Below, piece by piece: positions 1,925 through 58,936 of a stretch of DNA of 64,000 nt. The stretch comes from Lachnospiraceae bacterium (GTDB taxonomy: Bacteria > Bacillota > Clostridia > Lachnospirales > Lachnospiraceae). Position 1 is the first letter of the stretch. Each line of letters begins with the position of its first letter. Under the pieces are notes generated by a model, which did no database searches, was not told the DNA's origin, and saw only the letters and a program-made list of their open reading frames with translations. A program made the translations under genes and the position numbers. The DNA is taken from assembly GCA_017621815.1 (NCBI GenBank), contig JAGASK010000046.1:1-64000 (forward strand), in the 5' to 3' direction.

Positions 1925-2510
1925 TTTCTTCCACCTCCTTCCTACCTTTCATGAAAAGTTCCTGTTTATCCTCTGTGCTTCCCATGCACAGAATATCCAA
2001 CCAGTAATTCAAAACCGGTTCTGCATGGAGCATCTGCGAATAGTCCTCTGATAAAATAATATCCGGTGGCTTACCATTAAGGAAAATACTCATCTGCTCT
2101 ATCAGTGATAAACTGTCCCTTAAACTTTCAATACTTTGATTGCACCATCTGGTAAAACGCTCCCTGATGTGTATCAGCCTCTCACGTTCTGTCCGTTCTC
2201 TACGAATACGCTCCCTGTCCTGCTCGCTTAATTCCTTATTTCCTTTGATCTCTATCGGCAACCGGAAATCTTCTGCAATCTTTAACGCCGCCTCATATTG
2301 CGATAAATTAAACATCCGGGATACATAGTCAATCGCATCCCCTCCCACGCCGCAAGCAAAGCAATGATAGTTCTTATCAATCTTCATGCTTGGGTGCTTA
2401 TCATCATGGAAAGGGCAACAGGCTAACCCATTTCTTCTGACCTGCAGACCATAGTTTTCCGCTACCTGTCTCGCCGTCAGATACTCCTTTACCTCTGAAA
2501 AAATATTCAA
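1863..2510 (-). CDS. CHC2 zinc-finger primase-like protein
   Basis: Likely start is TTG 2510, nine bases after AAAGGAGA; the frame stays open further upstream but overlaps mobC there and lacks a good binding site. The protein has about 215 residues. The zinc ligands of a DnaG-type CHC2 finger are C32, H35, C50 and C53 (CCPFHDD, HCFACG), followed by GGDAIDYV. The Toprim catalytic domain of full primases is missing, so it is a DNA-binding primase fragment that would work with the overlapping VapE-like gene. Residues 95-215 are charged, helical and unrecognised. Same leftward operon as int. Confidence 0.8.
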   Translation of the reverse strand: MNIFSEVKEYLTARQVAENYGLQVRRNGLACCPFHDDKHPSMKIDKNYHCFACGVGGDAIDYVSRMFNLSQYEAALKIAEDFRLPIEIKGNKELSEQDRERIRRERTERERLIHIRERFTRWCNQSIESLRDSLSLIEQMSIFLNGKPPDIILSEDYSQMLHAEPVLNYWLDILCMGSTEDKQELFMKGRKEVEEIAERVRIGRERIMERNRGSA

Positions 2511-2589
2511 TATGCAATTTTCTCCTTTCCTCTGGAGAAAGCCTTTGCTATAATAAATGTGTGTGTTGGATAGAAAGGCTTTATCCTTT

Positions 2590-2913
2590 TTATTCATGAA
2601 TGCCCTTGTTACCAGCAGGGGCATTTTTATTTACTTCCAGCAATTGCTTTACCAATTCCAGCAGTAATCTTTCCTCTTCTGTATTGCCATTCTGTAAATG
2701 TACCAATATCTGCTCCAATACTTTTGCCACCCTAACCGACATATAGTTTCCGGCAATAACCGTTACCTCCTGCCCTAAAACTGCTTTCCGGTAATATTCA
2801 CCTTTCGATATCCCCGATAAAATTATCTTCGCTTCCACTTGGCTTTTCTCTTCGTCACTCAGCCAAAAAGCAATTGTATTGCGCCGAAACCTGTCCTCTC
2901 GTTTACACGTCAC
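2590..2913 (-). CDS. MobC-like/ribbon-helix-helix mobilization protein
   Basis: About 107 residues if the GTG at 2913 is used. It is preceded by GAGGTGAGGA and overlaps the integrase stop by 11 nt; the reading frame is open further up to 2952. The segment RNTIAFWLSDEEKSQVE followed by SGISKGEYYRKAVLG is the pattern of MobC-type relaxosome accessory proteins, with a short basic strand, a helix and a Gly turn ahead of a second helix. No relaxase is visible, so a role in transfer is not shown; it could equally be a regulator. It is coupled by overlap to int upstream. Confidence 0.6.
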   Translation of the reverse strand: MTCKREDRFRRNTIAFWLSDEEKSQVEAKIILSGISKGEYYRKAVLGQEVTVIAGNYMSVRVAKVLEQILVHLQNGNTEEERLLLELVKQLLEVNKNAPAGNKGIHE

Positions 2914-3982
2914 TCTCCTCACCTCTTTCCACTTTTCCAAGTCTGTCTGCAATTTTTACCTGCGCATCCATAGACTGATGACAATAGGTTTCAATCGTAG
3001 TCGTAACCTTTCCATGCCCTAACCGTTTTGCAATCTCGACTGGGCTGAATCCCATCTGCACAAGCATACTTGCATGACTGTGACGGGTACAATGAACTGT
3101 AATTTTCTTTACCCCTGACAACTTAATTCCACGTTCCATTTCATGCTCAAAGAAACTCTTTGTCCTTCCGGCAAAAAGACGTGTTCCCGGTCTCACATGA
3201 TACAAGGTCGCAATATATTCCTTAAGTTCCTCCTGCAATTCCTTATGTATCGTAATCACCCGAACCGAGCTTTCCGTCTTTGGTGCCGTAATCAAATCCT
3301 CTCCATCAAGCCTCGTCAAAGATTCGTCAACAGTTATGGTTCCCTGCTCAAAATCAATATCTTTCACCTGTAACGCCAGTAATTCTCCTATCCGCATACC
3401 TGTCCAAAATAAAATCTGAAAGGCAATCCAGGAATCCTGCTTATCCATAATCGCATCTGAAAATTTCTGAAACTCCTCCAGTGTCCAATACGGTCTCTCA
3501 TCCGCTTTACTCTTTCCCATGCTTCCGGCTTTGCGACAGGGATTCGAGCGCAGATCATAGAAATTTACTGCATAATTCAAAATGGCACTAAGCTGGTTAT
3601 GTATTGTTTTCAGATATGTGGGCTTAAAACCTTTTTCCATCATTTCTCCCTGCCATTTGCGTATCATGGGAGCTGTGATTTCATTAATTGGCGTTTTCCC
3701 GAAATACGGCAGTATCTTATCGTTCATCACATACTCTTTCTGTTTCATGGTAGTCTTTCGTAAACGCTTTTCCATATCTGCCTTATAAATCTCCCAAAAG
3801 TCCGCCAATGTCATCGTCGGATCAGATGATTGCTGCAGCATGAAATGTGCGTACCATTCTTCTGCTTCTTTCTTGGTCTTAAAACCTCTTTTCTGTGATT
3901 TCTTTTTGGTTCCCGTCCAATCCGTCCACCGATATTGTATCCGCCACGTACCGTTGGGATCTTTCTTTGCATTGCAGCTCAT
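2903..3982 (-). CDS. int: Tyrosine recombinase (integrase)
   Basis: About 359 residues from ATG 3982, chosen because AAAGGAGGTAAGTGC directly precedes it; an upstream ATG at 4012 lacks such a site. The N-terminus is an AP2-like arm-binding region (GTWRIQYRW), then a SAM-like core-binding domain, then the catalytic domain with R197 (GMRIGE), K235, H297-x-x-R300 (HCTRHSH), H323 (LGHG) and Y333 (ETYCH). All catalytic residues are intact. It should integrate and excise the element at the 3' end of guaA. Its ATG overlaps the xis stop as ATGA, so the two are translationally coupled. Confidence 0.93.
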   Translation of the reverse strand: MSCNAKKDPNGTWRIQYRWTDWTGTKKKSQKRGFKTKKEAEEWYAHFMLQQSSDPTMTLADFWEIYKADMEKRLRKTTMKQKEYVMNDKILPYFGKTPINEITAPMIRKWQGEMMEKGFKPTYLKTIHNQLSAILNYAVNFYDLRSNPCRKAGSMGKSKADERPYWTLEEFQKFSDAIMDKQDSWIAFQILFWTGMRIGELLALQVKDIDFEQGTITVDESLTRLDGEDLITAPKTESSVRVITIHKELQEELKEYIATLYHVRPGTRLFAGRTKSFFEHEMERGIKLSGVKKITVHCTRHSHASMLVQMGFSPVEIAKRLGHGKVTTTIETYCHQSMDAQVKIADRLGKVERGEESDV

Positions 3983-4173
3983 GCACTTACCTCCTTTGCT
4001 CCTCCGTACCATTTTTCCTTAAAATACTCCACCGGAATCTTTCCGGCGATTGTGAGAAATCCTTTACTTGCCAAATCCTTATTCATTTCTCTAAGGATTT
4101 TGTACGATTTCCCCATGCTCACACCAAGCATTTTTGCAATGTCCTCCGCACTGTAATAGATTTTTTCGCTCAT
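3979..4173 (-). CDS. Excisionase-like small HTH protein
   Basis: 64 residues, ATG 4173 behind AGGAGGAAACAAT. The sequence YYSAEDIAKMLGVSMGKSYKILREMN is a helix-turn-helix of the MerR/excisionase type, followed by a basic wing and FKEKW. Position immediately upstream of and overlapping int (ATGA) is typical for a recombination directionality factor. As the first gene of the leftward operon it would be made together with integrase and the replication genes. An AlpA-like activator role is an alternative. Confidence 0.8.
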   Translation of the reverse strand: MSEKIYYSAEDIAKMLGVSMGKSYKILREMNKDLASKGFLTIAGKIPVEYFKEKWYGGAKEVSA

Positions 4174-10340: not shown

Positions 10341-11684
10341 CTATCCATGTTTTCTACCCTTATCTTCTATTCTCTTCTTCTTTTCTGAACCCAAAATCTC
10401 CTTTAACCCTTTCACCGGCTCGTACCTCTTCTTCAGTTCATGCACCACCTTGTTGGTATTTCCCGGTTCCACCACCACATCATAACGACCTTCAATGCTG
10501 CCGAAAGTCACCGTCTTTTTAAGTCCCAGCATTTCCTTTAAATACTGAATCATATTTTCCCTGACAGCATTTTTGTTGTAAATCTTAATATAAGAATATC
10601 CCGGATAATCCACCGAATCATACTTCAAAACTTTCAGTTTATCCACATACCCTTCCGTCTTAAGCACCTGATAAAAATTTTCCATGACCTGTTTAGGATA
10701 AAGCAACATAAAGTAAATCACATTTTCCCTGTCCAAAGCTTCACTTTTTACATAGTTCCGGTAGGGAGATTTCCTCATTTCCTTCACCAACCGATTATGC
10801 ACCTCATCCCCTGTTTCTTTGTAAAAAATAACCAGCATATCATCAATAACCACATTTACAAAACACTGCAGCCCCTGCCCGTAAACCAGTTTTAAGATTT
10901 CCTTTGACATGGAGTTTGATATCACATAGGTTTTCAGATAAACATTTTCCTGAATATCATAAAGCACCGCTCCGTCCATGGCAATTACCGGAAGCTTTAA
11001 ACGAATGTCTTTCATAGGCACCATGAGAGATGCCGGGGTGCGCATGGTGGAAATGGTAAAATTGGCTCCCTCGTCCAGCATCCTGTTCAGTTCCACCTTG
11101 CTGTAATCGCTTAGATTGTCCTTTTCATGCAGCAGAGTATCATCCAGCCCGGAAATAAACAAAATATCCTTTTGCTTGCTCCTTGGCAGCGAAAAACTGT
11201 TTACACCGATTCCGATAATAATACCGATTATCGTATCCAGAAAACGATTCCATACAAAAAGGTAAGGATTATTATCCGACACATGGTTAACTACAATGCT
11301 TAAGAAAACCACGCAGGAAAAATAAGACGCCTGCTTTTTCTTAATCAGCACCGTAGTATATAAAACCACAATAATCATGCCGGAAATTACAAGGGCATTC
11401 ACCGCTTCGCTTTTTCCGGCAGAAAGATTCATTTTTTCTTCTATTAATAAAAATATCAGCCCATAAACGGCTCCGATAATTGTTCCGATAAAACGCTGAA
11501 CTGCATTTTGCCTGCTGTTTGAAATATACATCTGGATGCACCAAAGCGCCGCCAGCTGGGAATAAAACACAATTCCGCTGCTTCCCCGAAGGAAAGATAC
11601 CAGATAACATATACCGATAGCAAGCGCAGATTTCACAATCCGCATACCGATGGGCGGTAATATTCTTTTTACTGTTTTCCCCAT
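10341..11684 (-). CDS. FUSC-like membrane domain fused to degenerate HAD (Cof-type) domain
   Basis: 447 residues. Residues 1-165 hold about six hydrophobic helices resembling the FUSC/aromatic-acid-exporter membrane domain. From about 172 a Cof-type HAD phosphatase fold begins at LFISGLDDTLL. In active members motif I is D-x-D-x-T; here the first Asp, the nucleophile, is Gly. The last motif (usually GDxxND) reads GSIEGRYD. The HAD part is therefore probably a binding or regulatory domain rather than an enzyme. It overlaps the kinase-like gene upstream by 16 nt, suggesting a common transcript. Function unknown. Confidence 0.7.
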   Translation of the reverse strand: MGKTVKRILPPIGMRIVKSALAIGICYLVSFLRGSSGIVFYSQLAALWCIQMYISNSRQNAVQRFIGTIIGAVYGLIFLLIEEKMNLSAGKSEAVNALVISGMIIVVLYTTVLIKKKQASYFSCVVFLSIVVNHVSDNNPYLFVWNRFLDTIIGIIIGIGVNSFSLPRSKQKDILFISGLDDTLLHEKDNLSDYSKVELNRMLDEGANFTISTMRTPASLMVPMKDIRLKLPVIAMDGAVLYDIQENVYLKTYVISNSMSKEILKLVYGQGLQCFVNVVIDDMLVIFYKETGDEVHNRLVKEMRKSPYRNYVKSEALDRENVIYFMLLYPKQVMENFYQVLKTEGYVDKLKVLKYDSVDYPGYSYIKIYNKNAVRENMIQYLKEMLGLKKTVTFGSIEGRYDVVVEPGNTNKVVHELKKRYEPVKGLKEILGSEKKKRIEDKGRKHG

Positions 11685-46595: not shown

Positions 46596-49289
46596 TTATT
46601 TCACGGCTTCTGTTTTTATTATAAATTTAACACTTCCATCCACACCTTCCGGAAGTCCCGTAAAGGTATTATATTCTTCACCGGCATCAGCCACTGCCTT
46701 GAGCCTGTCAACAACCTCCTGAACATCATCACCGAAAAGTTCTGTCAGTTTACTGATTCCTTCTTCATCAAACCGGAACATGCCGTCTACCAGCGCAAGC
46801 GCGCCTTCATCCAGGGTTCCCATTCCCTCATCCAGTATCAAAACACCTTCCTTCAGAGTATCAATTCCCTGTTTTAAATCTCCTGCACCATTATTCAAAG
46901 CTTCTGTACCTGAAACCAGCTGACTCGTACCGTCTTTGAGTACGCCTGTACCGCTCTTCAGGGAAGCTGCTCCGTCTTTCAGGCTTCCTGCTCCGTCTGC
47001 CAGTTCACCGGCCCCGTTGTTTAAGGTATCAATTCCCTGTTTTAATTCACTTACGCCGCTGTTTAATTCCTGTGCTCCCGAAACAGCAGATGCCGTTCCG
47101 TCCTTCAGTTGTGCTGCTCCTATTCCCAAAGCCTGCAGGCCTTTATCCGGTGTCTCACCTACCAGCTGATTTACACCTGCAGATACTTGCTGTAAGCCCT
47201 GATTCAGATTTCCCGTACCGCCGGCAATCCCTTCCGCCAAAAGCTTAATATTAGCTTTGGCTTCCTTTGCCTGCTCACTATTCGCAGAGGACAACGCCGA
47301 AGCCATGGCTTCCAATGTTCCTATCTGTGCATCGCAGGCTGCCACTGCAGCCTGACAGGCAGCCACCTGATTTTCCGCTTCCTGATAAGCTGCTAACGCG
47401 CTTTGAATATCACCTGAATTTACAACTTCAACCTCCACATTTTCTGTGTTGTAAGAAGTCACTTCCACTTCCGCTGTTTTTGATAATGACTGAGTTTCTG
47501 TTCCTGTGACCACTTCTATCTCATAGCTTTCCGTTTCTTCCTCCCCTTCGCCGTCGCCTTCAGAAGCCTGACTGATAGTACGCTGTTCCGTTACGGGTAC
47601 TTCTATCTCTACTTCTACTTCCTGACTGACCACCTGCGTGTCTGCTCCTGTTACAACCTCAAAGCTCTGACTGGAAGCAGAACATGATGCAAGCAGCGCA
47701 TTTTGTGCATTATCCCGCGCAGCCTGAGCCTGTTCCAATCCTGCCTGAGCCTGAGACCTGCTTTCTCTGGCCCCGGCAAGCTGTGCTTCAATAGTGGCTG
47801 TCAGTTCTCCTGCTGCCTGGTCCGCACTTTCAAAATATGCCTGCACCAGGGTATTTAATATGGCAGCATTGTCTGTCAGGCTCTTCGAACCTGCTAAAAT
47901 GGAGACATTGTCGCCGTTTTCATTTGTCATCTGACTTAAACTGTATTGTAACTGCTTTGCACCTTCACTGGCTGCCAACACACCGTTTTTCAAAGAATCG
48001 GCGCCTTCATCCAACTGTTTTGCTCCGCTTACCAGCGAACTTGTTCCGTCGAGAAGCTTTTGTCCACCCTGCTGCAGTTCACCTGTTCCTGACTTTAACT
48101 GTGAAACACCATTTTGCAATGCCACTGTTCCGTCCAGAAGCGCCGATGCTCCTTCATCCAGCTGATCGGCTCCGCTGTTTAAAAGCCCTGACTTCTCATA
48201 TAATTCCTGTGTACCGTTTTTTAACTGTGAAGCACCATCCTTCAGTTCATCCGTACCTGCCAGCAGTTCACCTGTTCCTTCCTTAAGTTGACTGCTTCCG
48301 TCCTGCAGTTCCACAGTACCTTCTTTTAATTCATTTGTGGCCGCCTGCAAATCTTCCATAGAATCATTGATATCGGAAAGGTCAAAGGAATCTGTCAGTT
48401 CAATATCCGAAAGCACATCACTCATAGCCACTGTCATGGTCATGCCAAGTTCAAAATTCTGTGCATCCGCCGTCACCTCAATATAATCCGGAATTTCCAA
48501 ATCCTCAAGTTCTTTTCCTTTATCTGAAAGTTCCTCCTTTAATCCTTCCGCATCAATGCTTTCCTTTAATCCAGGAAAAGCAACACCCACTACTACGCTG
48601 TTATTTCCTTCCGACATCAGCCTTGCATTGGTCACTTCAATATTTGAAAATATCTCCTGGGGAAGCACCATACCCGAAATCATTGCAAAAGGAATTTTTA
48701 TTTCCTGCTTCTTCCCTCCGATATCCACTGTTCTTGTTTCTTTATTTTCATAATCCAGACGAATAGTAACCCTGCCGCTTTTTCCTGCCAGTTCTTCCGG
48801 CGCAATATCTTTTCCATCCAGCTGATAGGAAACTTTTACTTCTACCGGAACCTCCTTATCGGTAGTTCCCCTGTAATAAATATCAGCGCCCTGGGCCTGC
48901 CATGTAATATTTCCATCCCCATCTGCTTCAAAGGTTTCATATCCCTTCACATTCTCAATGCCTGTTAAATCCGAATAATCTGTAAGAACACTGTCACCGT
49001 CAGCATTTTTCAGCCAGTCACTGACAATCACCTCATTAACGCCGCCCGCGGCATCAGCCAGCACATATACAGTTTCTTCTTTCCCTGCCTCGCTGCTGTG
49101 GGAGGCATTTACCTGTCCGTTTAACACTTCTTCCAAAACACTTTCCTGGTTTTCCTGCGTGATCACGGAAGAGACTTCAGCCTGTTCCTGACCACAGCCC
49201 GCAAGGCTGATTACCAATACTGCGCTAAGTCCCAGGCTTAATACCTTTGTTCCAATCCCTCTGTTTCCTTTCCTGTTTTCGTTTTTCAT
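46596..49289 (-). CDS. Heptad-repeat lipoprotein partner of MMPL transporter
   Basis: 897 residues. Signal peptide with lipobox VISLAGC; N-terminal 330 residues beta-rich; two long blocks (about 320-465 and 690-850) of a heptad-type repeat LxxGxxxLxxG (LKDGTSQLVSGTEALNNGAG) as in YhgE/Pip-type envelope proteins; between them a Gln/Ala coiled coil with a Glu-rich insertion (EGDGEGEEETESYE). It overlaps the MMPL gene by ATGA, so it is probably an extracellular rod or channel element working with that transporter. Confidence 0.82.
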   Translation of the reverse strand: MKNENRKGNRGIGTKVLSLGLSAVLVISLAGCGQEQAEVSSVITQENQESVLEEVLNGQVNASHSSEAGKEETVYVLADAAGGVNEVIVSDWLKNADGDSVLTDYSDLTGIENVKGYETFEADGDGNITWQAQGADIYYRGTTDKEVPVEVKVSYQLDGKDIAPEELAGKSGRVTIRLDYENKETRTVDIGGKKQEIKIPFAMISGMVLPQEIFSNIEVTNARLMSEGNNSVVVGVAFPGLKESIDAEGLKEELSDKGKELEDLEIPDYIEVTADAQNFELGMTMTVAMSDVLSDIELTDSFDLSDINDSMEDLQAATNELKEGTVELQDGSSQLKEGTGELLAGTDELKDGASQLKNGTQELYEKSGLLNSGADQLDEGASALLDGTVALQNGVSQLKSGTGELQQGGQKLLDGTSSLVSGAKQLDEGADSLKNGVLAASEGAKQLQYSLSQMTNENGDNVSILAGSKSLTDNAAILNTLVQAYFESADQAAGELTATIEAQLAGARESRSQAQAGLEQAQAARDNAQNALLASCSASSQSFEVVTGADTQVVSQEVEVEIEVPVTEQRTISQASEGDGEGEEETESYEIEVVTGTETQSLSKTAEVEVTSYNTENVEVEVVNSGDIQSALAAYQEAENQVAACQAAVAACDAQIGTLEAMASALSSANSEQAKEAKANIKLLAEGIAGGTGNLNQGLQQVSAGVNQLVGETPDKGLQALGIGAAQLKDGTASAVSGAQELNSGVSELKQGIDTLNNGAGELADGAGSLKDGAASLKSGTGVLKDGTSQLVSGTEALNNGAGDLKQGIDTLKEGVLILDEGMGTLDEGALALVDGMFRFDEEGISKLTELFGDDVQEVVDRLKAVADAGEEYNTFTGLPEGVDGSVKFIIKTEAVK

Positions 49290-51382
49290 AATGAAACTGC
49301 CTCCTGCTTTATTTTGTTTTTCTTTTTACTGCTTTTTAAAACACTGTGCATAATTACCCTGTCAAATACCATGAACATGGAGGGTAATATGAAAATTACA
49401 GATACCATACTGATAAGTGCGCCCCTTGCCATCAATGTACAAAGAGAACTGATCATATCAATATTGGAATACAGTCCAACCCCAAAGGTTGCTGCAAAAA
49501 AGGACAATGCACTGACCATAATAGACTTCACGCTGGTCTGACATGCAATTGTAACTGCTTCCTTTTTCTCCACACCGCAAAATCTTTCTTTTCTGTATCT
49601 TGTAGTCATTAAAATTGCGTAATCCACTGTGGCCCCCAGCTGGATTGTTCCGATAACCACAGAGGCAATAAAAGGTATTGCTGTTTTTGTATAATAAGGA
49701 ATTCCCATATTTACAAAAATCGCCATTTCTATAACCGAAACGAGGATTATCGGCAGAGAAACTGACTTAAACACCAACAGGATAATAACAAAAATCACAC
49801 CGATGGATACCACACTGACCGTACTGAAATCCTTATCTGTAATTTCTATCAAATCTTTGGTACATGGCGCTTCTCCTACCAGCATTCCCTTGCTGTCATA
49901 AGATTTGCAGATAGCATTCAGTCTTTCACACTGGGCGTTAACTTCATCAGAAGCCACCTTATATTGAGAACCAATTAATAAAAGCTGCCAGTTTTCATTC
50001 ATAAGGGAATCCGTTAAATCAGAAGGAATCAGCTCATCCGGAACAGATGCCCCTTTTATGGAATTAAGCCCCAGTATCCAGTTAACGCCATCCACTTCTT
50101 TCATTTCATCAGTCATATGCTTTACATCCTTAGAAGAGAGATCCGCACTGAGCAGAAGCATATGCGTGGCATTCATATCAAAGCTTTCATTCAGCTTGTC
50201 ATTCGCTATAATACTGGGCAAATCCTTTGGCAAGGTCTCATCCAGATTGTAATATACCTTCGTATTTTTGTAGCCATATAAAGCCGGTATCAAAATAATC
50301 ACAAACAATACCACAAAAATCTTGTAATTCTTCGTTACAAATGCACCCACACCTTTTAAATCGGGAAGCAACGCCTTATGTTTTGTTTTTTCCAGCGCCC
50401 TGTCAAAAACAAGTATCATGGAAGGCAAAATTGTAACACAGGCAACTACACCGAAAACCACCCCTTTTGCCATCACTATGCCCAAATCCATTCCCAGCGT
50501 AAAGCTCATAAAGCAAAGGGCGATAAAGCCTGCCACAGTGGTCATGGAACTGCTCACCACGGAAGTAATCGTCTCGCCGATTGCTTTTGCCATAGCTTCC
50601 TTTTTATCCGCTGCTTCCAACTGCTTTTCCTGATAGCTGTGCCACAGGAAAATGGAATAATCCATAGTTACCCCAAGCTGCAGCACTGCACTTAATGCTT
50701 TCGTAATATAAGAGATTTCCCCCATAAAAACATTGCTTCCAAGATTATAGATAATCGCCATTCCTATACTGAGCAAAAACAGAAACGGAATCAAAAACGA
50801 ATCCATGGTAACAGATAAAACCAGACAGGAAAGCAGCACGGCAATGCACACATAAATGGGAGCTTCCTTTTCCGAAAGATTTTTTGTATCTGTCACCACT
50901 GCGGACATTCCGCTTAGAAAGCAGTTTTTATCAGCTATTTTTCTGATATTTTCAATAGCCTCCATGGTTCCGTCCGCCGAAGTGGTCTCATTAAAGATGA
51001 TGGCCATCATCGTGGCATCTCCGCTGTTAAATGCATCATACAGTTCATCCGGCAGCATTTCCATAGGCACCGAAATATCCATAACCGAATCATACCAGAG
51101 CACCTTTTCCACATGCTCCACACCTTCAATTTCTTTCTTCAGTTTTTCAATTTCTTTTGGCTCCATTCCTTCCACAACAAACATGGAAAAGGCACCTGTA
51201 CCGAATTCGTCAACCAGAATATCCTGCCCTTTCATCGTTTCAATATCTTTGGGCAGGTAAGACAGAATATCATAGTTGACTCTGGTAGCCGCATACCCCA
51301 GAAAGGATGGTATCAGAAGTACCAGGCTTAAAATCAGAATCGGTATTCTCAGCTGAACGACCTTTTTCCCGAATTTTTCCAT
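49286..51382 (-). CDS. MMPL/RND-family transporter
   Basis: About 698 residues; start taken at ATG 51382 after GAGGTG, although ATGs at 51388 and 51397 are in frame. Two blocks of six membrane helices each follow a large extracytoplasmic loop, the RND layout. TVDYAILMTTRYRKE and TMDYSIFLWHSYQEK are the paired GxxxDY motifs of MMPL lipid/hydrophobe exporters. Expression is probably controlled by the divergent TetR through an operator over its -35 box. Confidence 0.9.
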   Translation of the reverse strand: MEKFGKKVVQLRIPILILSLVLLIPSFLGYAATRVNYDILSYLPKDIETMKGQDILVDEFGTGAFSMFVVEGMEPKEIEKLKKEIEGVEHVEKVLWYDSVMDISVPMEMLPDELYDAFNSGDATMMAIIFNETTSADGTMEAIENIRKIADKNCFLSGMSAVVTDTKNLSEKEAPIYVCIAVLLSCLVLSVTMDSFLIPFLFLLSIGMAIIYNLGSNVFMGEISYITKALSAVLQLGVTMDYSIFLWHSYQEKQLEAADKKEAMAKAIGETITSVVSSSMTTVAGFIALCFMSFTLGMDLGIVMAKGVVFGVVACVTILPSMILVFDRALEKTKHKALLPDLKGVGAFVTKNYKIFVVLFVIILIPALYGYKNTKVYYNLDETLPKDLPSIIANDKLNESFDMNATHMLLLSADLSSKDVKHMTDEMKEVDGVNWILGLNSIKGASVPDELIPSDLTDSLMNENWQLLLIGSQYKVASDEVNAQCERLNAICKSYDSKGMLVGEAPCTKDLIEITDKDFSTVSVVSIGVIFVIILLVFKSVSLPIILVSVIEMAIFVNMGIPYYTKTAIPFIASVVIGTIQLGATVDYAILMTTRYRKERFCGVEKKEAVTIACQTSVKSIMVSALSFFAATFGVGLYSNIDMISSLCTLMARGALISMVSVIFILPSMFMVFDRVIMHSVLKSSKKKNKIKQEAVSL

Positions 51383-51406
51383 TGTCATACACCTCATTCA
51401 AATTTG

Positions 51407-51419
51407 TGACCATTGGTCA
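51407..51419. promoter_or_regulatory. TetR operator 1
   Basis: Palindrome TGACCATTGGTCA, 25 bp upstream of the MMPL start, downstream of the MMPL promoter; identical to operator 2. Confidence 0.8.
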
Positions 51420-51438
51420 TTTTTATTTTTCAATGGGT

Positions 51439-51467
51439 GTTATATCACAATAATGACCATTGGTCAA
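51439..51467 (-). promoter_or_regulatory. Promoter of MMPL-lipoprotein operon
   Basis: Minus strand TTGACC (51462-51467), 17 bp, TATAAC (51439-51444). The -35 box lies within operator 2, so binding there should block transcription. Confidence 0.7.
51454..51466. promoter_or_regulatory. TetR operator 2
   Basis: Second exact copy of TGACCATTGGTCA, centre 47 bp from operator 1, overlapping the MMPL -35 box. Confidence 0.8.
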
Positions 51468-51504
51468 TATTCTAAATATTAAAAAATTCTAAACACAAAA
51501 TTCG

Positions 51505-51533
51505 TTGCTTTTTCGACTTTTTATTTTTATACT
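51505..51533 (+). promoter_or_regulatory. Promoter of TetR gene
   Basis: TTGCTT (51505-51510), 17 bp, TATACT (51528-51533). It lies outside both palindromes, so repression of the tetR gene itself may be weak. Confidence 0.6.
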
Positions 51534-51560
51534 GTATGTAAGAAAGGGCAGAGTAAAATC

Positions 51561-52175
51561 ATGGGAAAAATAGATTTAAACAAAAAACAGAAGCGGGAGG
51601 CCCTGTTAAATACTGCTTTTGAACTGTTTACCACCCAGGGCATCAATAAAACTACCATTAATAACATTGTGGAAGCCGCAGGCGTCGCCAAAGGAACTTT
51701 TTATCTTTATTTTAAGGATAAATATGATATAAGGAATAAGCTGATTGCCCATAAAGCCAGCCACATCTTTTCTATTGCTGACGAAGCCTTATCCCAAACA
51801 GGACTAACAGAGTTAGATGACAGAATTATTTTTCTTGTGGATAATATTATTGAACAATTTAATGCTGATAAATCTCTTTTAAATTTTATATCCAAAAACT
51901 TAAGCTGGGGCATTTTTAAGAACGAGCTGATATCCTCAAGTGATAACTATGATGTGAATTTTTACAATATTTACACAATTCTTGAAAACTCCCCCAGAGC
52001 CTTCAAAAACCCTGAAGTACTCCTTTTTATGATTGTTGAACTTGTCAGTTCTACCTGCTACAGTTCTATTTTATATGGCGAACCTGTCTGCATAGAAGAA
52101 CTGAAGCCGTACCTTTTTGATGCCATCAGGCAGCTTATAAAAAGCCAGGAAGTCAAATCCCCGGAGGCAAACTGA
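51561..52175 (+). CDS. TetR/AcrR-family regulator
   Basis: 204 residues. The N-terminal helix-turn-helix is classic (FELFTTQGINKTTINNIVEAAGVAKGTFYLYFKDKYDIRNKL pattern, residues 16-57); the C-terminal ligand domain is divergent with two Cys near 172. Divergent from the MMPL operon with two identical palindromic operators between, so it most likely represses the exporter until an unknown hydrophobic ligand binds. Confidence 0.92.
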   Translation: MGKIDLNKKQKREALLNTAFELFTTQGINKTTINNIVEAAGVAKGTFYLYFKDKYDIRNKLIAHKASHIFSIADEALSQTGLTELDDRIIFLVDNIIEQFNADKSLLNFISKNLSWGIFKNELISSSDNYDVNFYNIYTILENSPRAFKNPEVLLFMIVELVSSTCYSSILYGEPVCIEELKPYLFDAIRQLIKSQEVKSPEAN

Positions 52176-52280
52176 CTTACATCAAACTTACAGTATGACA
52201 GCGCTGCAGAGTATTTAGTAAATTTTTATAAAATTTCTGTAAAAATCACCCTTTGTTTGTAAAAAAGTACATTTCCTTGC

Positions 52281-52310
52281 TTGACTGATACTCCCCTTGT
52301 AACCTATAAT
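52281..52310 (+). promoter_or_regulatory. Promoter of pflB operon
   Basis: TTGACT (52281-52286), 18 bp, TATAAT (52305-52310); leader about 65 nt to pflB. Confidence 0.7.
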
Positions 52311-52380
52311 TAGAAGTACAAAAACAGCATAGTTGTTATGCTCATAATTAAATAATAAATAAATAGGAGGCTTACTCAAA

Positions 52381-54420
52381 ATGAGACCAGAATGGAACAA
52401 TTTTGTAGGCGGTAAGTGGGAAAATGAAGTAAACGTACGTGACTTCATTCAGAAAAACTATCATCCTTATGATGGTGATGATTCCTTCTTAGCTGAAGCT
52501 ACACAGGACACAAAAGACTTATGGTCAATGGTACTTGATTTACAGAAAAAGGAACGTGAGGCAGGCGGCGTTCTTGATATGGATACCAAGGTTGTATCCA
52601 CTATCACATCACACGGCCCCGGCTATCTTGACAAATCCAAGGAAAAAATCGTTGGATTCCAGACAGATAAGCCCTTCAAGCGTTCTCTTCAGCCTTACGG
52701 CGGTATCAGAATGGCAGAAAAAGCTTGTTCTGACAACGGATATGAAGTAGATCCTGAAATCAGCGAGTTCTTCTCTACACACAGAAAAACTCACAATGCA
52801 GGATGTTTTGATGCTTACAACCAGGAAATGAGAGCATGCCGTTCCGCACACATCATTACAGGTCTTCCTGATGCTTACGGACGTGGACGTATCATCGGCG
52901 ACTACAGACGTGTTGCCCTGTACGGTATTGATTACCTGATTCAGGATAAGCAGGCACAGAAGGATTCTACCGGACGTGTTATGACAGATGATGTTATCCG
53001 TCTTCGTGAAGAACTTTCCGAGCAGATGGTAGCTCTTAAGATGATGAAGGAAATGGCTGCTTCCTATGGATGCGATATTTCCAAACCCGCTACCAACGTA
53101 AAGGAAGCTATCCAGGCTACTTACTTCGGATATTTATGTGCAGTTAAAGAGCAGAACGGTGCTGCTATGTCCCTTGGACGTACATCTACATTCCTTGACT
53201 GCTATGCAGAAAGAGACTTAGCTAACGGAACATTTACAGAAGCAGAAATTCAGGAATTCGTTGACCACTTCATTATGAAGCTGCGTTGCGTAAAATTCGC
53301 GCGTACTCCTGAATACAACCAGATTTTCGCTGGTGACCCTGTATGGGTAACAGAATCCTTAGGCGGTGTTGGTGTTGACGGCCGTCATATGGTAACAAAG
53401 ATGAGCTTCCGTTACTTACACACATTAACAAACTTAGGACCCAGCCCTGAACCTAACTTAACAGTTCTCTGGTCCACAAGACTTCCTGAAAACTGGAAGA
53501 GATACTGTGCTAAGATGTCCATCCAGACTTCTTCCATCCAGTATGAAAATGATGACCTTATGAGAGTAACTCATGGTGATGACTACGGTATCGCATGCTG
53601 CGTATCCTCCATGGTTATCGGTAAGGAAATGCAGTTCTTCGGAGCTCGTGCTAACCTTGCAAAATGTCTGCTTTACGCTTTAAACGGTGGTGTAGACGAA
53701 GTTACCAAGAAGCAGGTTGGACCTAAGTATCGTCCTGTTTCCGGCGATGTGCTTGATTATGATGATGTAATGGATAAATTCATCGATATGATGGAATGGC
53801 AGGCAGATGTATATGTTAACACTCTGAACATCATTCATTATATGCATGATAAATACTGCTATGAAAGAGCTGAAATGGCACTTCATGACAGAGACGTTAA
53901 GCGTTATTTCGCAACAGGTGTTGCAGGTCTCTCTATCGTAGCTGACTCCTTATCAGCAATCAAATATGCTAAGGTTGAAGTTATCAGAGATGAAGACGGC
54001 ATTATCGTTGACTTCAAGACAACTGGTGACTTCCCTAAATACGGTAATGATGATGACCGTGTTGACAGCATTGCTCAGGAAATTGTACACAAATTCATGA
54101 CAGCTATCAGAAGACATCACACCTACAGAAACGGTGTTCCTACAACTTCCATTCTTACCATTACTTCTAATGTAACTTATGGTAAGGCTACAGGTAACAC
54201 ACCTGACGGACGTAAGAAAGGACAGCCTTTCGCACCCGGTGCTAACCCGATGCATGGACGTGATACTCATGGTGCAGTAGCATCTCTGTCTTCCGTATCC
54301 AAACTTCCTTTCAAGGATGCACAGGATGGTATTTCCAATACCTTCACCATCATCCCCGGAGCTCTTGGTAAAGAAGACCAGGTATTCGCTGGTGATATCG
54401 AAATCGATTTAAACAAGTAA
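52381..54420 (+). CDS. pflB: Pyruvate formate-lyase, large subunit lacking the glycyl-radical domain
   Basis: 679 residues against about 760 in Escherichia coli PflB. ATG 52381 follows AGGAGGCTTACTCAA. It aligns from the start ([17 protein letters not shown]), has the catalytic pair C406-C407 ([20 protein letters not shown]) and the [12 protein letters not shown] segment, then ends shortly after [16 protein letters not shown]. The C-terminal radical loop (RVSGY) is absent and is found as a separate gene at 54697. The enzyme would cleave pyruvate plus CoA to acetyl-CoA and formate only with that subunit. The stop is genuine: the downstream gene has its own start and site. Confidence 0.95.
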
Positions 54421-54471
54421 TTTGAAGTAAAGTTAAAAATTCAATATATCTAATTTCAGGGAGGTAACGTA

Positions 54472-54675
54472 ATGGACGAAAAAAATATGATTGATGATCT
54501 TGTAAAAATGCTGGATTCCGGTATGGCTATGGGCGTGGGACATGTAAATGTTGACACTGATGCCACAAGTGAGCAATCCAAAAACGTTCAAACCATGGGA
54601 TGTACTGATTGTTCCAGAACTCCTCTGGCATGCAGCGTTCCTACCCTGGAAGATGGATTAGATGATTTTCATTAA
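54472..54675 (+). CDS. 67-aa cysteine-containing paralogue of the radical-domain N-terminus
   Basis: ATG 54472 after GGGAGGTAACGTA, 51 bp after pflB and 21 bp before the radical subunit, so one transcript. Residues 7-28 (IDDLVKMLDSGMAMGVGHVNVD, read as two pieces) align with residues 8-29 of the next protein, sharing DxLVxxLD and HxNV spacing. The second half has no RVSGY; it carries C44, C47 and C54 (MGCTDCSRTPLACSV) and an acidic end LEDGLDDFH. It may compete with or protect the radical subunit, bind a metal, or be a chaperone. I know no described function. Confidence 0.8.
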   Translation: MDEKNMIDDLVKMLDSGMAMGVGHVNVDTDATSEQSKNVQTMGCTDCSRTPLACSVPTLEDGLDDFH

Positions 54676-54696
54676 TATTTAAGGAGGTAATTAACC

Positions 54697-54939
54697 ATGG
54701 CAGCAAGTGCAGCACAGGTAGATAACTTAGTATCATTATTAGATGGTTACGCAACAAAAGGCGGTCATCATCTTAATGTCAATGTATTAAACAGAGATAC
54801 ATTATTAGATGCTCAGAAGCATCCTGAGAACTATCCTCAGCTTACAATTCGTGTTTCAGGATATGCAGTTAATTTCATTAAATTAACTCCTGAACAGCAG
54901 GCTGACGTTATCAGCAGAACATTCCATGAAGCTATCTAA
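54697..54939 (+). CDS. Detached glycyl-radical subunit of pyruvate formate-lyase (GrcA-like)
   Basis: 80 residues, ATG 54697 behind AAGGAGGTAATTAACC. Residues 22-60 ([33 protein letters not shown]) are almost the same as the C-terminal end of PflB. G55 in RVSGY is the radical glycine. It supplies exactly the part missing from the large subunit, starting where that protein stops. Autonomous GrcA (YfiD) in enterobacteria is a repair spare for a complete PflB; here it appears to be the only radical source, i.e. an obligatory subunit. Confidence 0.93.
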
Positions 54940-54946
54940 TATGCAA

Positions 54947-54981
54947 ACAACAGAAAGCACGCTTTGAGAACTTTCTATTGT
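54947..54981. repeat. 35-bp dispersed palindrome, copy C
   Basis: Arms ACAACAGAAAG and CTTTCTATTGT around CACGCTTTGAGAA, 7 bp after the radical-subunit stop. Confidence 0.75.
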
Positions 54982-54991
54982 CATGAAAAAC

Positions 54992-55021
54992 AAGACGGCA
55001 CGCAAAACGTGCCGTCTTTTT
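54992..55021 (+). terminator. Terminator of pflB operon
   Basis: AAGACGGCACG (54992-55002) pairs perfectly with CGTGCCGTCTT (55008-55018), followed by TTT. It ends the formate-lyase transcript at the stop codon of the convergent GGDEF gene. Confidence 0.9.
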
Positions 55022-56924
55022 AATGCATATTTTCTCTTGTAAATTTATTTTTCCTTTTTTGTATATACATCCTCTTATCAGCAAGCTGCATACATGACAT
55101 AAGCGACAAATCCTTCTCATCACTTATACAGCAGATTCCGACGCTGGCCTGAAAAGGATACGGCTTTTTGCAGCGTTTTTCTTCTTCCTGCATGGCACTG
55201 ATAAACTGCCTTTCAAAATCTATACTCCGTTCTCTTGTAGGTGAGTACAACAATACAGAGAATTCATCACCACCTACCCTCGCACAGATTTCATCTTCTT
55301 CAATCAGCTTTTCCAAAACCTTAGCCAAACGGCAAAGTGCTTCATCACCTTCTGCATGCCCGAAATTGTCATTAATATATTTCAGTCCATTCATGTCTAT
55401 ACTGACAATACTTAAATACTTTCTCTCATCCTCGTATCTTTCATGCAGACTTCGAAGGTGCTTTTCATATCCTCTTCTGTTATATATTCCGGTTAAGGAA
55501 TCCACATAATAAAGCTTCTTAATCTGTTCCAGTCCGGACAATTCCTGATGCATATAGGCATCCTCAATAGCGTTGGCAAGGCTCGTAAGATACGCAGAAA
55601 CATAACTATCCGGCCATTCATCATCCTCAAATGTGAAAACCATATATCCGTAACTCTTATTTTTATAATGTATGGAAAAAACAAGATAGCCCTGCGCTTC
55701 TTTTCCGCTAAGCACACTATCCGGAAGGATGCTTCCCCTGTCAAATTCTTCTTCATACTTAATTCCCCTGCTGTCACGGGTAAAAATTCGTTTTAAAATC
55801 ATTTTCTCAGAAAAATAATTATCATTTTCCGCCGCCTCAAAGCTTTTTTCCTCTGTATTACACATACATAGATAAGCTTTACTGCAGTTAACGTTCTGAA
55901 GGTATTTCTCAGCCACCTTCAGATACTCTTCCTCTTCAAAAGCATCCTGATAATCTGTTGTCATAAATACTGACTGTTTAATATTATCTTCCTCAACATA
56001 AATCTTAGACAGCATCCATGATAAATCCTCCAATTCCCCCTGCTCCCCGCATCCGCAGCTTCTGCGCAGCTGCAGAGAGGGCTTAAGCCATTCCACGCGC
56101 TTTTGTTCCCGGCCTGCACAGATATTATCTATCATTTCCACTGCTTTTACACCCATACTTTCAAAAGGTGCCTTAATACTCGTAAGAGACGGCTGATATC
56201 TTCTTGCGTCCGGCAAATCATCATATCCTGAAACACAAACCTCCTCCGGAATGCGGACCCCTCTCTTTTTCAGTTCATCGCAAACCGACAACGCCATGTA
56301 ATCATTAGAACAAATAATCGCCTGCGGATAAGAATCCCTGCCTTCCATAAACCAATCTACCGCTTCTTTTCCTTTTTTTCTCCAATAATCCCCCTCAAAT
56401 ACCATATGCTTTGTAACAGGAATTTTCGCTTCCTCCATTACACTCAGAAAAGACTGATATCTCTCCCTGGCATCCTGACTTCTCATATCCCCCGTCATAA
56501 AACAGATATCCCGAAAGCCATGATGGATGATAAAATGCCTGACCATATCCGCAATAGCTTCTCCGCCTTCTACCAGAACATTATAAAAATTCTCTTTAGC
56601 ATCCCGGATATAAACCACCGGGCAAGCTGCCTTTTTTTCCAAAAGCTTTTGCAATTCGCCTTCCATTCCGTCAATGTCAAAGGTATCCTCTGCAACAATA
56701 ATCCCATCTAATTTTGAACAATCAGGAAGCCTGATAATTCCCTTTTCCCCTTCCGCATAAAGCACATTATCTCCATATGCCCCGAAATTGCAGAACACAA
56801 AAACATCATAATCCAACTCCCCGGCTTTTTTAAATATAGATTTAAGAACAACTATCTGATATTCTGACGTAATTTCCCCCATAAAAACGCCGATTCTCCT
56901 TCTCATCTGCCTGCCTTCTCCCAT
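55020..56924 (-). CDS. Diguanylate cyclase with LacI-like periplasmic-binding sensor domain
   Basis: About 634 residues from ATG 56924 (GGAGGAACTTTGATA); the frame is open further up to 57068 through a terminator hairpin, so the longer form is unlikely. Residues 5-280 form a LacI/PBP1-type sugar-binding fold (VCVSGYDDLPDARRYQPSLTSI) without its helix-turn-helix; then a GAF-like region and a GGDEF domain with active motif GGDEF at 551-555. No RxxD inhibitory site is visible. It should be a cytosolic cyclase whose cyclic di-GMP output depends on a small ligand. Confidence 0.88.
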   Translation of the reverse strand: MGEGRQMRRRIGVFMGEITSEYQIVVLKSIFKKAGELDYDVFVFCNFGAYGDNVLYAEGEKGIIRLPDCSKLDGIIVAEDTFDIDGMEGELQKLLEKKAACPVVYIRDAKENFYNVLVEGGEAIADMVRHFIIHHGFRDICFMTGDMRSQDARERYQSFLSVMEEAKIPVTKHMVFEGDYWRKKGKEAVDWFMEGRDSYPQAIICSNDYMALSVCDELKKRGVRIPEEVCVSGYDDLPDARRYQPSLTSIKAPFESMGVKAVEMIDNICAGREQKRVEWLKPSLQLRRSCGCGEQGELEDLSWMLSKIYVEEDNIKQSVFMTTDYQDAFEEEEYLKVAEKYLQNVNCSKAYLCMCNTEEKSFEAAENDNYFSEKMILKRIFTRDSRGIKYEEEFDRGSILPDSVLSGKEAQGYLVFSIHYKNKSYGYMVFTFEDDEWPDSYVSAYLTSLANAIEDAYMHQELSGLEQIKKLYYVDSLTGIYNRRGYEKHLRSLHERYEDERKYLSIVSIDMNGLKYINDNFGHAEGDEALCRLAKVLEKLIEEDEICARVGGDEFSVLLYSPTRERSIDFERQFISAMQEEEKRCKKPYPFQASVGICCISDEKDLSLMSCMQLADKRMYIQKRKNKFTRENMH

Positions 56925-56960
56925 TATCAAAGTTCCTCCGCCAGAAGATTTCCCACTTGG

Positions 56961-57001
56961 TAAAAAACAACGCCGAAAACAGACTGCATCTGCATTCGGC
57001 G
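56961..57001 (-). terminator. Terminator between XRE/DUF2975 pair and GGDEF gene
   Basis: CGCCGAA (56995-57001, minus strand) pairs with TTCGGCG (56971-56977), followed by TTGTTTTTTACC. It is 100 bp after the XRE gene stop. Confidence 0.75.
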
Positions 57002-57097
57002 CTGCCAATGTGCACAAAAAAGCAAATACATACACATTTATATTAGCTTTTTTTGCCATTTTTTTCAACTATATTTAATATAATTTGTACAATATTT

Positions 57098-57325
57098 CTA
57101 AGTATCAGATGGATTTTGCTTATCTCTTTCAAATTCCAATATATCCCCCGGCTGGCAGTCCAACACATCACAAATTGCATTCAAAGTGGAAAATCTGATA
57201 GCGCTGACCTTTCCCGTTTTAATATTAGAAAGATTCACATTTGCAATGCCTACCTTTTCTGCCAGTTCATTTAATGATATTTTCCTGTCGGCCATCACTC
57301 TGTCCAGTCTCAAAATAATTGCCAT
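57098..57325 (-). CDS. Small XRE-family regulator (YozG-like)
   Basis: 75 residues from ATG 57325, chosen because AGGAGGAATTTGCG precedes it; the open frame runs to 57400. Helix-turn-helix MADRKISLNELAEKVGIANVNLSNIKTGKVSAIRFSTLNAICDVLDCQPGDIL pattern of the YozG group. It is paired with a DUF2975 membrane protein as in many Firmicutes. Confidence 0.9.
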   Translation of the reverse strand: MAIILRLDRVMADRKISLNELAEKVGIANVNLSNIKTGKVSAIRFSTLNAICDVLDCQPGDILEFERDKQNPSDT

Positions 57326-57347
57326 CGCAAATTCCTCCTGTCTGTTC

Positions 57348-57890
57348 CTATAATGTTTCATCTGATTGCTTTTGAAGCTCACAGCCATATTCAAAAACAT
57401 TCAAAACGCACCACAGTGAAAAACCAATTACGGCTCCGATTAGAAGACTGCTTTTCAAAGATAAAATTGTTATCAGCACAAATGAAACCCTCAGACTTTT
57501 CACTATTTCAGCTCTAAAAGGAGAGTAACTTTCTTTCATTTCCTTAAAAACCTTACCGATAAAATGCATTACCACTGCAAGGCAAATCATCATTGCACCC
57601 ATTGCGAGCATGTATGCCCCTGCCGATTCAGCTATATAGCCTTCTTCTATTAACTTTTGCCCTATCATTCCTTCATAAGCGAAACTAAATTCTTCCGGCT
57701 GCAGCTGCCCGCTCTCTATGCCGTAAGAAATCGCTTCATTTAAAATTCCTTTCAGCCCTATCATCAAAAATCCACACAAACATAAAATAACTGCCATGGT
57801 AATAGCAAAAATCTTTGCAATTGTAGTAATAGTAAGCGCTGCCTTACTGCTTTTTTGAATCTTTTCAATTCTCATATTTTCTTCTCTCAT
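57348..57890 (-). CDS. DUF2975 membrane protein
   Basis: 180 residues with four predicted helices, the DUF2975 arrangement (FKEMKESYSPFRAEIVKSLR before the third helix). ATG 57890 after GAGGGAAAA. Together with the XRE gene 22 bp downstream it forms a common two-gene module, probably a membrane signal passed to the regulator. Confidence 0.85.
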   Translation of the reverse strand: MREENMRIEKIQKSSKAALTITTIAKIFAITMAVILCLCGFLMIGLKGILNEAISYGIESGQLQPEEFSFAYEGMIGQKLIEEGYIAESAGAYMLAMGAMMICLAVVMHFIGKVFKEMKESYSPFRAEIVKSLRVSFVLITILSLKSSLLIGAVIGFSLWCVLNVFEYGCELQKQSDETL

Positions 57891-58118
57891 TTTTCCCTCA
57901 TTTCTATACCAGCCTTTTAACTGATACCTATACTTTGCAAATTTTATCTAACAGCTGCGCATATGCTTCCTTCTCTGTTATACTGTCATAATACACTCTA
58001 TCATTATGTTTGTCAATAATTATTTAATGTTTATCGTTAAATTTTATATCTTTTTCATTGTTTTAACTATTATATGCTTTTATATTTTCTATTTCATTTA
58101 TTAAAACCTTTTCTGATA

Positions 58119-58147
58119 TTGGATTTTAGGCAAATATCTGCTATACT
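58119..58147 (+). promoter_or_regulatory. Promoter of pflA
   Basis: TTGGAT (58119-58124), 17 bp, TATACT (58142-58147), 30 bp before the start codon. Confidence 0.7.
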
Positions 58148-58177
58148 ATAAATGAATTTGGAAGGGAGATTGAGATT

Positions 58178-58936
58178 ATGAAAGGCAGAATTCATTCATT
58201 AGAAAGCTTCGGCACTGTAGATGGTCCCGGAACCCGTTTTGTTGTTTTCGTACAAGGCTGCCCCATGCGCTGCGCTTATTGCCACAATCCTGATACCTGG
58301 TCTATGACCGGAGGCACTATGATGGAGCCGGAAGAAATCTATGAGCAATATAAAAGGAACGAAGGCTTTTATAAGAACGGCGGCATTACTGTTACCGGCG
58401 GAGAACCTCTAATGCAGGTTGATTTTTTAATTGATCTTTTTACTATTGCCAAGAAAGATAATGTACACACCTGTATTGATTCTTCGGGCATTGCTTTTAA
58501 GCCGGGAAATACCGAATTTATAAAAAAACTTGACAAATTAATGGAATTAACCGATTTGGTTATGCTGGATATTAAACACATTGATCCGGAAAAACATAAG
58601 GAACTTACTTCACAGCCCAATGACGGCATCCTGGCTTTTGCCGAATACCTTGACAGCAGGAATGTGGATATGTGGATTCGCCACGTTGTCGTTCCCGGCA
58701 TTACGGATGATGATAAATATCTTTTTAAGCTTGGTTATTTCATTGGACAGTTCTCCAATTTGAAGGCGCTTGACGTACTTCCTTATCATACAATGGGAGA
58801 AACCAAATATGAAAAACTGGGAATTCCTTATAAACTTGCAGGTGTACCGGCTATGGATAAAAACAAAGTCATAGAGAAAAAGGAAGTCATTTTAGAGGGA
58901 ATCCGTAAACGCCGCTCGGAAGAAGCGCCGCATTAA
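58178..58936 (+). CDS. pflA: Pyruvate formate-lyase activating enzyme
   Basis: 252 residues. Radical-SAM cluster ligands C28, C32, C35 in GCPMRCAYCHNPDTW, then GGITVTGGEPLMQ and DVLPYHTMGETKYEKLG, all typical of PflA. It would abstract a hydrogen from the glycine of the RVSGY loop, which here sits on the separate 80-aa protein, so it must recognise a small free or docked domain. ATG 58178 after GAAGGGAGATTGAGATT. Confidence 0.96.
   Translation: MKGRIHSLESFGTVDGPGTRFVVFVQGCPMRCAYCHNPDTWSMTGGTMMEPEEIYEQYKRNEGFYKNGGITVTGGEPLMQVDFLIDLFTIAKKDNVHTCIDSSGIAFKPGNTEFIKKLDKLMELTDLVMLDIKHIDPEKHKELTSQPNDGILAFAEYLDSRNVDMWIRHVVVPGITDDDKYLFKLGYFIGQFSNLKALDVLPYHTMGETKYEKLGIPYKLAGVPAMDKNKVIEKKEVILEGIRKRRSEEAPH

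Follow-up and report, generated by a model that had tools for sequence, protein, structure and literature searches.

A pyruvate formate-lyase of Lachnospiraceae encoded as a catalytic core and a separate glycyl-radical subunit, with a conserved third gene between them

Introduction

Can a pyruvate formate-lyase (PFL) be built from two separately encoded parts, and is the second part then obligatory? This question is raised by a locus of a Lachnospiraceae bacterium, a gut anaerobe (GenBank assembly GCA_017621815.1, contig JAGASK010000046.1), of which a stretch of 64,000 nucleotides, referred to here as the window, was analysed. Oxygen destroys glycyl radical enzymes through cleavage at the radical site, and a preliminary description of the locus, made from the sequence of the window, had proposed that a shortened PflB depends on a small protein that carries the radical domain. 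We followed up this proposal in the source genome (a draft of 3.5 Mb in 52 contigs, 91.55% complete), in related genomes up to the level of the phylum, and in phage sequences. A third gene in the operon (ORF2), a spare copy of the radical-subunit gene and phage versions of the split enzyme had been missed in the preliminary description and were found here.

Results

Core and radical subunit

According to the preliminary description, PflB ends at residue 679, just where the radical domain starts, and an 80-aa protein with the motif RVSGY (G55), encoded downstream, represents this domain. Both statements agree with the profile searches. The core scored 1105 bits against TIGR01255 (cut-off 994) while covering only model positions 2-665 of 744; the 80-aa protein spans positions 665-743 of the same model and is recognised as GrcA3 (NF038360, 161 bits, cut-off 158). 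The C-terminal glycyl-radical domain is thus absent from the chain of the core and encoded separately. Aligned with E. coli PFL (1h16), the core corresponds to residues 10-681 and the small protein to residues 683-758, so that, judging from these alignments, the two tile a whole PFL almost without a gap. The adjacent active-site cysteines typical of PFL type 1 are present in the core (C406-C407, IACCVSSM; for the roles of residues C418/C419 see PMC12338860). The coordinates of all features are given in Table 1.

Table 1. Features of the split PFL locus in the window
Feature	Position	Strand	Basis
Promoter-like site TTGACT-18-TATAAT	52281..52310	+	11/12 consensus matches; weak
pflB core, 679 aa, catalytic part without glycyl-radical domain	52381..54420	+	TIGR01255 1105 bits, PF02901 727 bits
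Codons of active-site cysteine pair C406-C407 (GIACCVSSM)	53596..53601	+	Sequence; aligned to E. coli IACCVS loop
ORF2, 67 aa, docking-segment-like N-terminal third and two-cysteine C-terminal tail	54472..54675	+	Conservation, dN/dS, hhalign
grcA3-type glycyl-radical subunit, 80 aa	54697..54939	+	NF038360, TIGR01255
Codon of radical glycine G55 (RVSGY)	54859..54861	+	Sequence; aligned with RVSGY of E. coli PFL
12-bp hairpin 3' of operon	54992..55018	.	Terminator-like listing for - strand only
pflA, activating enzyme, not contiguous with operon	58178..58936	+	TIGR02493 PFLA 296 bits, cut-off 232

In core fold, cysteine pair, radical-domain sequence and activating enzyme the system resembles PFL type 1 (E. 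coli PflB, TIGR01255), from which it differs by its separate radical domain, by the small gene in between and by a second radical-subunit gene elsewhere in the genome. The substrate is not readable with certainty from sequence, which leaves some room for the idea that the core is no longer a PFL and that its radical subunit serves a reaction on a different 2-oxo acid. However, the core passes the cut-off of the TIGR01255 equivalog even with 79 model positions missing, and a PflA equivalog is encoded nearby; we regard such a change of reaction as improbable.

The promoter-like site has to be taken as weak, since the scan gave 6 such sites where 7.3 were expected. On the plus strand, the stem of the hairpin is followed by TTTAATG. 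No RNA element was matched in an Rfam search of positions 51400-58200. A TetR-type regulator gene (51561-52175, +) lies just upstream of pflB, and a LacI-type sugar-binding domain joined to a GGDEF domain is encoded between the operon and pflA (55020-57068, -). Further upstream, an MMPL transporter gene stands beside that of an 897-aa protein without Pfam match (46596-51397, -), and the window starts with remains of a mobile element, a VapE-like protein and a phage-type integrase (566-4012, -).

The split in the genome and the genus

A PF02901 profile search of the genome hit one place only, which is the core described here, without radical domain. PF01228 matched four places. Two belong to the operon (the core's end and the radical subunit), one is a second small-subunit gene on another contig (C41) and one a ribonucleotide reductase (C44). 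The last of these, a Gly_radical place of 768 aa, came into consideration as a full-length PFL and was rejected: it is a class III ribonucleotide reductase encoded beside its activase. A full-length PflB elsewhere, named in the preliminary description as the finding that would overturn its proposal, was looked for and not found in this 91.55%-complete draft. Since the only PFL core found in the genome lacks the radical domain, this domain would have to act in trans. The claim of an obligatory small subunit is supported by the gene content of the draft (one PFL core, no full-length copy); the complex, its activity and any oxygen benefit are putative. For pyruvate:ferredoxin oxidoreductase (TIGR02176), the genome gave partial sub-cut-off matches only (best 158 vs 911 bits), and PFL may therefore, tentatively, be the main route to acetyl-CoA in this draft genome.

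All 37 genomes of the genus match the core protein in some form. In 34 of them, the window's own included, identity is at least 93%, with some copies cut by contig ends; one of the others (G011) has a fused-type fragment of 65% identity, and two (G013 and G016, 59% and 82% complete) show distant relatives of the core only. Wherever a listed match covered the whole core (27/27), the frame comprised 684-702 aa, which is too short to include a radical domain.

ORF2, a third gene in the operon

The distance of 276 bp between core and radical-subunit gene had been given correctly in the preliminary description; the gap is not empty, as it contains a third gene, ORF2, that has a ribosome-binding site of its own. 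In 68 equally long loci, differences by codon position amounted to 506/292/2089, and for the 39 loci with usable dS the median dN/dS to the window was 0.066 (maximum 0.135). Stops were present in 136 of 136 shifted frames of ORF2 loci. ORF2 is under purifying selection. Read-through into one long protein was considered, as the three genes share one frame in the window, but was rejected on the mixed frames of relatives, where the first gap is in frame in 20 of 80 loci and the second in 29 of 79.

The two window proteins ORF2 and GrcA3 match each other in BLASTP with an E-value of 3e-4, and the alignment of the two families by hhalign gave a probability of 95.2 (E 2.6e-8) over 33 columns. By these comparisons, ORF2 and GrcA3 are homologous in their first thirds. 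In an order-wide search the ORF2 model also produced weak matches (E between 1e-6 and 1e-3, reaching model position 36 at most) to GrcA3 and, in the same range, to the radical domain of fused PFLs. Mapped via GrcA3, the N-terminal region of ORF2 corresponds to about residues 683-709 of E. coli PFL, within which strand beta10 falls according to the excerpt of PMC8683613.

In place of RVSGY, all 30 diverse ORF2 members compared have a tail of the form C-x(4-8)-AC-x-[VTSI]-PTL. Invariant in these 30 are D15, C47, A53, C54, P57, T58 and L59, and the proteins contain two (16 members), three (13) or four cysteines (one). By eye, the tail ACSVPTL resembles the active-site loop ACCVSSM. Pfam has no family for the window ORF2 and gave chance-level matches only for 17 members. 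For 15 of the 17 members NCBIfam returned weak matches to NF038360 (best E 7.1e-5), and for one a weak match to NF041053 (0.0039). No ORF2 match was found in PHROGs, and among solved structures nothing was better than E 0.28.

Being small, containing cysteines and having its gene next to that of a glycyl radical enzyme, ORF2 calls to mind a small iron-sulfur subunit as in benzylsuccinate synthase or 4-hydroxyphenylacetate decarboxylase. A usual [4Fe-4S] site has four cysteines. With 16 of 30 members having two only, too few for the usual single-chain site, this candidate was rejected on cysteine count; moreover, the above-chance family matches consist of GrcA3 on the N-terminus and the one weak match of a single member. 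We consider an iron-sulfur subunit very improbable. The accessory subunits of benzylsuccinate synthase, which bind [4Fe-4S] clusters (PMC12590467, excerpt), are likewise small extra proteins of a glycyl radical enzyme; as far as that excerpt describes them, ORF2 is distinguished by its mostly two or three cysteines and its relationship to the radical domain itself.

Occurrence of the split and of ORF2

The order was sampled evenly with 196 genomes, of which 26 had a small stand-alone GrcA3 frame among the matches listed, from which GrcA3 status was taken (25 over the cut-off and one further genome, G109); a 94-aa frame of lower score in G221, possibly cut by a contig end, was excluded from the 26. 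Full-length ORF2 (E below 1e-23) was present in 21 of these 26 genomes and in none of the 170 others, a comparison in which the ORF2 model was partly built from members of the same sampled genomes. The 20 order loci examined comprised 18 split operons (15 with ORF2, three without), a lone grcA3 and a fused PFL without ORF2; at one locus (L103) the core is cut by the contig end.

Of the 150 genera sampled within the family, 39 have ORF2 at an E-value of 1e-8 or below, two of the matches being partial (G635 and G648). A core was present in 18 of 20 family ORF2 loci by text search, none being seen in L232 and L234, and all 18 have a separate gene for the radical subunit. ORF2 was recognised in 13 of these 18, a tally that reflects our reading of the annotated rows, where some GrcA3 genes with RISGY bore the ORF2 label. 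In a sample of the phylum, ORF2 occurred in 2 of 398 genomes, both from the family of the window.

A scan of genome contigs that required ORF2 confirmed 519 of 537 stretches. In the best 80 of the 519 loci, the core is always short (80/80), ending at 678-680, and grcA3 follows downstream in 79, the exception (L159) lying at a contig edge. These loci were chosen through ORF2; they therefore demonstrate an association of ORF2 with the split and give no measure of the frequency of the split. ORF2 is not needed for every split PFL, because it is absent from 5 of the 26 GrcA3 genomes and unseen in phage loci (see below).

Origin of the split

In a tree built from 42 cores, 21 of them split and 21 fused, the split ones all fall into a single supported clade (100/98), which also holds one fused member, the PFL of locus L105 (genome G162). 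The label split or fused needs two changes on this tree, and none of 500 shuffles was as low. The grouping of the fused L105 with split cores that lack ORF2 is not strongly supported (90/65); L105 is probably a re-fusion of a core with a GrcA3-type domain. We read the tree as a single ancient split, with the loss of ORF2 and one re-fusion in the same sub-clade. As the split clade spans four families (f1, f8, f11 and f22), transfer or repeated loss must have occurred. Among named organisms, Parablautia intestinalis stands closest to the window genome in the core tree, with 96% identity.

The preliminary description had allowed that the gene might have been broken recently in a single strain. 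All that can be said for such a break is that a gene broken in one genome can look alike. It is contradicted by the genus-wide short cores and by the single origin in the core tree; the split also occurs in other genera and families, and the gap contains a conserved gene. We give a recent break hardly any weight, and from these comparisons the split appears real and old.

The split cores of one ORF2-less genus (g81; loci L096 and L099) carry a cysteine-rich tail, DDCLCCEP..., in both of the two sequences read, as if the function of the cysteines had moved to the core.

A spare radical-subunit gene and its palindrome

The second, stand-alone grcA3 of the window genome (contig C41, 22639-22896, corresponding to 10640-10897 of locus L005) scored 157.6 bits against NF038360, just under the cut-off of 158. 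It is flanked by genes for a Crp/Fnr regulator and a formate/nitrite-family transporter; near the spare grcA3 of 16 congeneric loci, the regulator was found in 14 and the transporter in one. A perfect palindrome, GTAACnnnnGTTAC, is located 82-139 bp upstream of the spare grcA3 in 17 of 17 loci (16 congeners and the window genome), which are close relatives and in which the motif was spotted by eye before counting. It occurs in none of 27 pflB upstream regions; of 2000 shuffled versions of one such region, 3 contained a perfect copy. Over the whole genome, the palindrome is no more frequent than expected by chance (6 sites, 6 in the control); only the grcA3 site lies outside a long frame, the other five being inside. 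According to the excerpt of PMC1274295, GTAACnnnnGTTAC equals the consensus of HcpR2, with a regulon tied to nitrogen-oxide stress. The adjacent Crp/Fnr protein matched several Crp/Fnr models, all below cut-off, and its best match among solved structures is Lmo0753. We infer from this arrangement that the spare grcA3 may be induced by stress, and the separately encoded copy lends indirect support to the idea that the radical part is replaced.

Phage versions

A scan of viral contigs with the window GrcA3 yielded 14 loci. Three contain a split core together with grcA3 (L255, and the look-alikes L256 and L262), two (L263 and L264) a frame of 739 aa that encodes a fused PFL, and nine a lone grcA3 in the stretch examined; ORF2 was sought in all 14 and not found. 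Two phage lineages among these contigs carry the split pair, in two gene orders. In L255, a contig of 110 kb, a 680-aa core is followed by a 77-aa grcA3. In L256 (IMGVR_UViG_3300028833_000149), grcA3 precedes the core and stands beside class III ribonucleotide reductase and ThyX-like genes. The core frame of this phage (4243-6270) stays open only with TGA translated as Trp; its three in-frame TGA codons all fall on Trp positions of the window core. This phage seems to use a recoded stop, and L262 shares its in-frame stop. A viral scan with the core gave 10 loci, nine fused and one split, the latter being the L255 contig. Small GrcA-like stretches were counted in 1539 of 50,697 phage records, a number that includes fused PFLs of bacterial records. 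T4 Y06I is a known phage GrcA-like protein, in agreement with a common occurrence in phages.

Discussion

Known relatives and an engineered counterpart

Small free-standing glycyl-radical domains are known as GrcA, YfiD and T4 Y06I (NCBIfam GrcA, GrcA2 and GrcA3). E. coli GrcA repairs an enzyme that was made complete, whereas no complete enzyme was found in the draft genome studied here; the window GrcA3 also lacks the 60-residue N-terminal part of YfiD. NCBIfam already names the small-protein family GrcA3, and the small protein is thus already annotated, as a spare part.

An artificial split of E. coli PFL, consisting of a truncated PFL (tPFL) and a truncated YfiD, was made by Andorfer et al. 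2021 (PMC8683613, excerpt). It shares with the natural system an equal division of labour and a cut at most about 15 residues away, the natural cut lying a few residues earlier. Once activated, tPFL:truncYfiD was as fast as intact PFL (kcat 204 vs 105 per s), but the radical installed reached only 2.7 uM compared with 17.2 uM for intact PFL, and 0.5 uM when full YfiD was used. According to the same excerpt, residues 696-733 of E. coli PFL, with strand beta10, are important for binding and activation. As described there, the engineered pair differs from the natural one in being man-made, poorly activated and without ORF2.

The best-scoring solved relatives of the core are PDB 38la_A and 38lb_A ('Formate acetyltransferase', 687 and 739 aa), of which 38lb extends 44 residues past the aligned core. 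Neither was among the listed matches of the radical subunit. They are possibly split PFL cores, either natural ones or engineered truncations, and related work is probably under way. In the open-access literature (bioRxiv left aside), no natural split PFL or ORF2 was described among the matches listed, which is weak evidence of absence.

A possible mechanism

We think it likely that this is an obligatory two-part PFL with an exchangeable GrcA3-type subunit, in which ORF2 may have a placeholder or loading role. According to this proposal, the core would hold the substrate pocket and the cysteine pair and be unable to carry the radical, and the 80-aa GrcA3-type protein would dock where the C-terminal domain is missing, receive its glycyl radical from PflA and hand it to C406/C407. 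If the small subunit were destroyed by oxygen or another radical trap, only that part would have to be replaced, the replacements coming from the operon copy and from the second, stand-alone copy with its own putative Crp/Fnr-type operator. Complex formation, activity and exchange after damage are what we infer here from gene content and conservation.

In ORF2, a copy of the docking helix and strand of that domain is joined to a conserved two-cysteine tail in place of the glycine loop. If it occupies the docking position left free on the core, it could guide the loading of GrcA3 or guard the open pocket until then, and its cysteine tail might permit redox control. We tentatively favour this assignment as placeholder or loading factor, for which the chances may be a little short of even, because ORF2 offers a copy of the docking segment in trans and the engineered split loads less radical; the split systems that lack ORF2, those of phages among them, speak against it.

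The two cysteines, invariant in 30/30 members and located where the radical domain has its glycine loop, also fit a redox or radical-safety device, which would quench a stray radical by donating a hydrogen atom or block the pocket by a disulfide under oxidising conditions; the cysteine-rich core ends of the ORF2-less genus g81 point in the same direction. Since the distance from the first cysteine to the conserved alanine is variable (4 to 8 residues), however, and phage split pairs do without ORF2, we see such a device as rather unlikely. The placeholder or loading role of ORF2 could be extended to an at least three-part, hot-swappable enzyme made up of core, exchangeable radical subunit (one copy in the operon, another under a stress-type operator) and ORF2 as a mimic of the radical domain, which would fill the vacant docking site and set the time of loading through oxidation or reduction of its cysteines; we regard this scheme as less likely than not.

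Significance

A radical site on a cheap, separate part would, if true, turn permanent damage into an exchange of parts. This natural system would allow docking, installation of the radical and replacement to be examined one by one, and the conserved ORF2 together with a spare copy putatively controlled by the palindrome makes the replacement idea directly testable. As ORF2 was found in more than a quarter of the sampled genera of the family, the split may matter for the production of formate and acetyl-CoA in many gut Lachnospiraceae. If the hot-swap reading is true, central fermentation in a clade of gut Lachnospiraceae and their relatives would depend on an enzyme maintained by replacement of a part, and phages would carry the pair as well.
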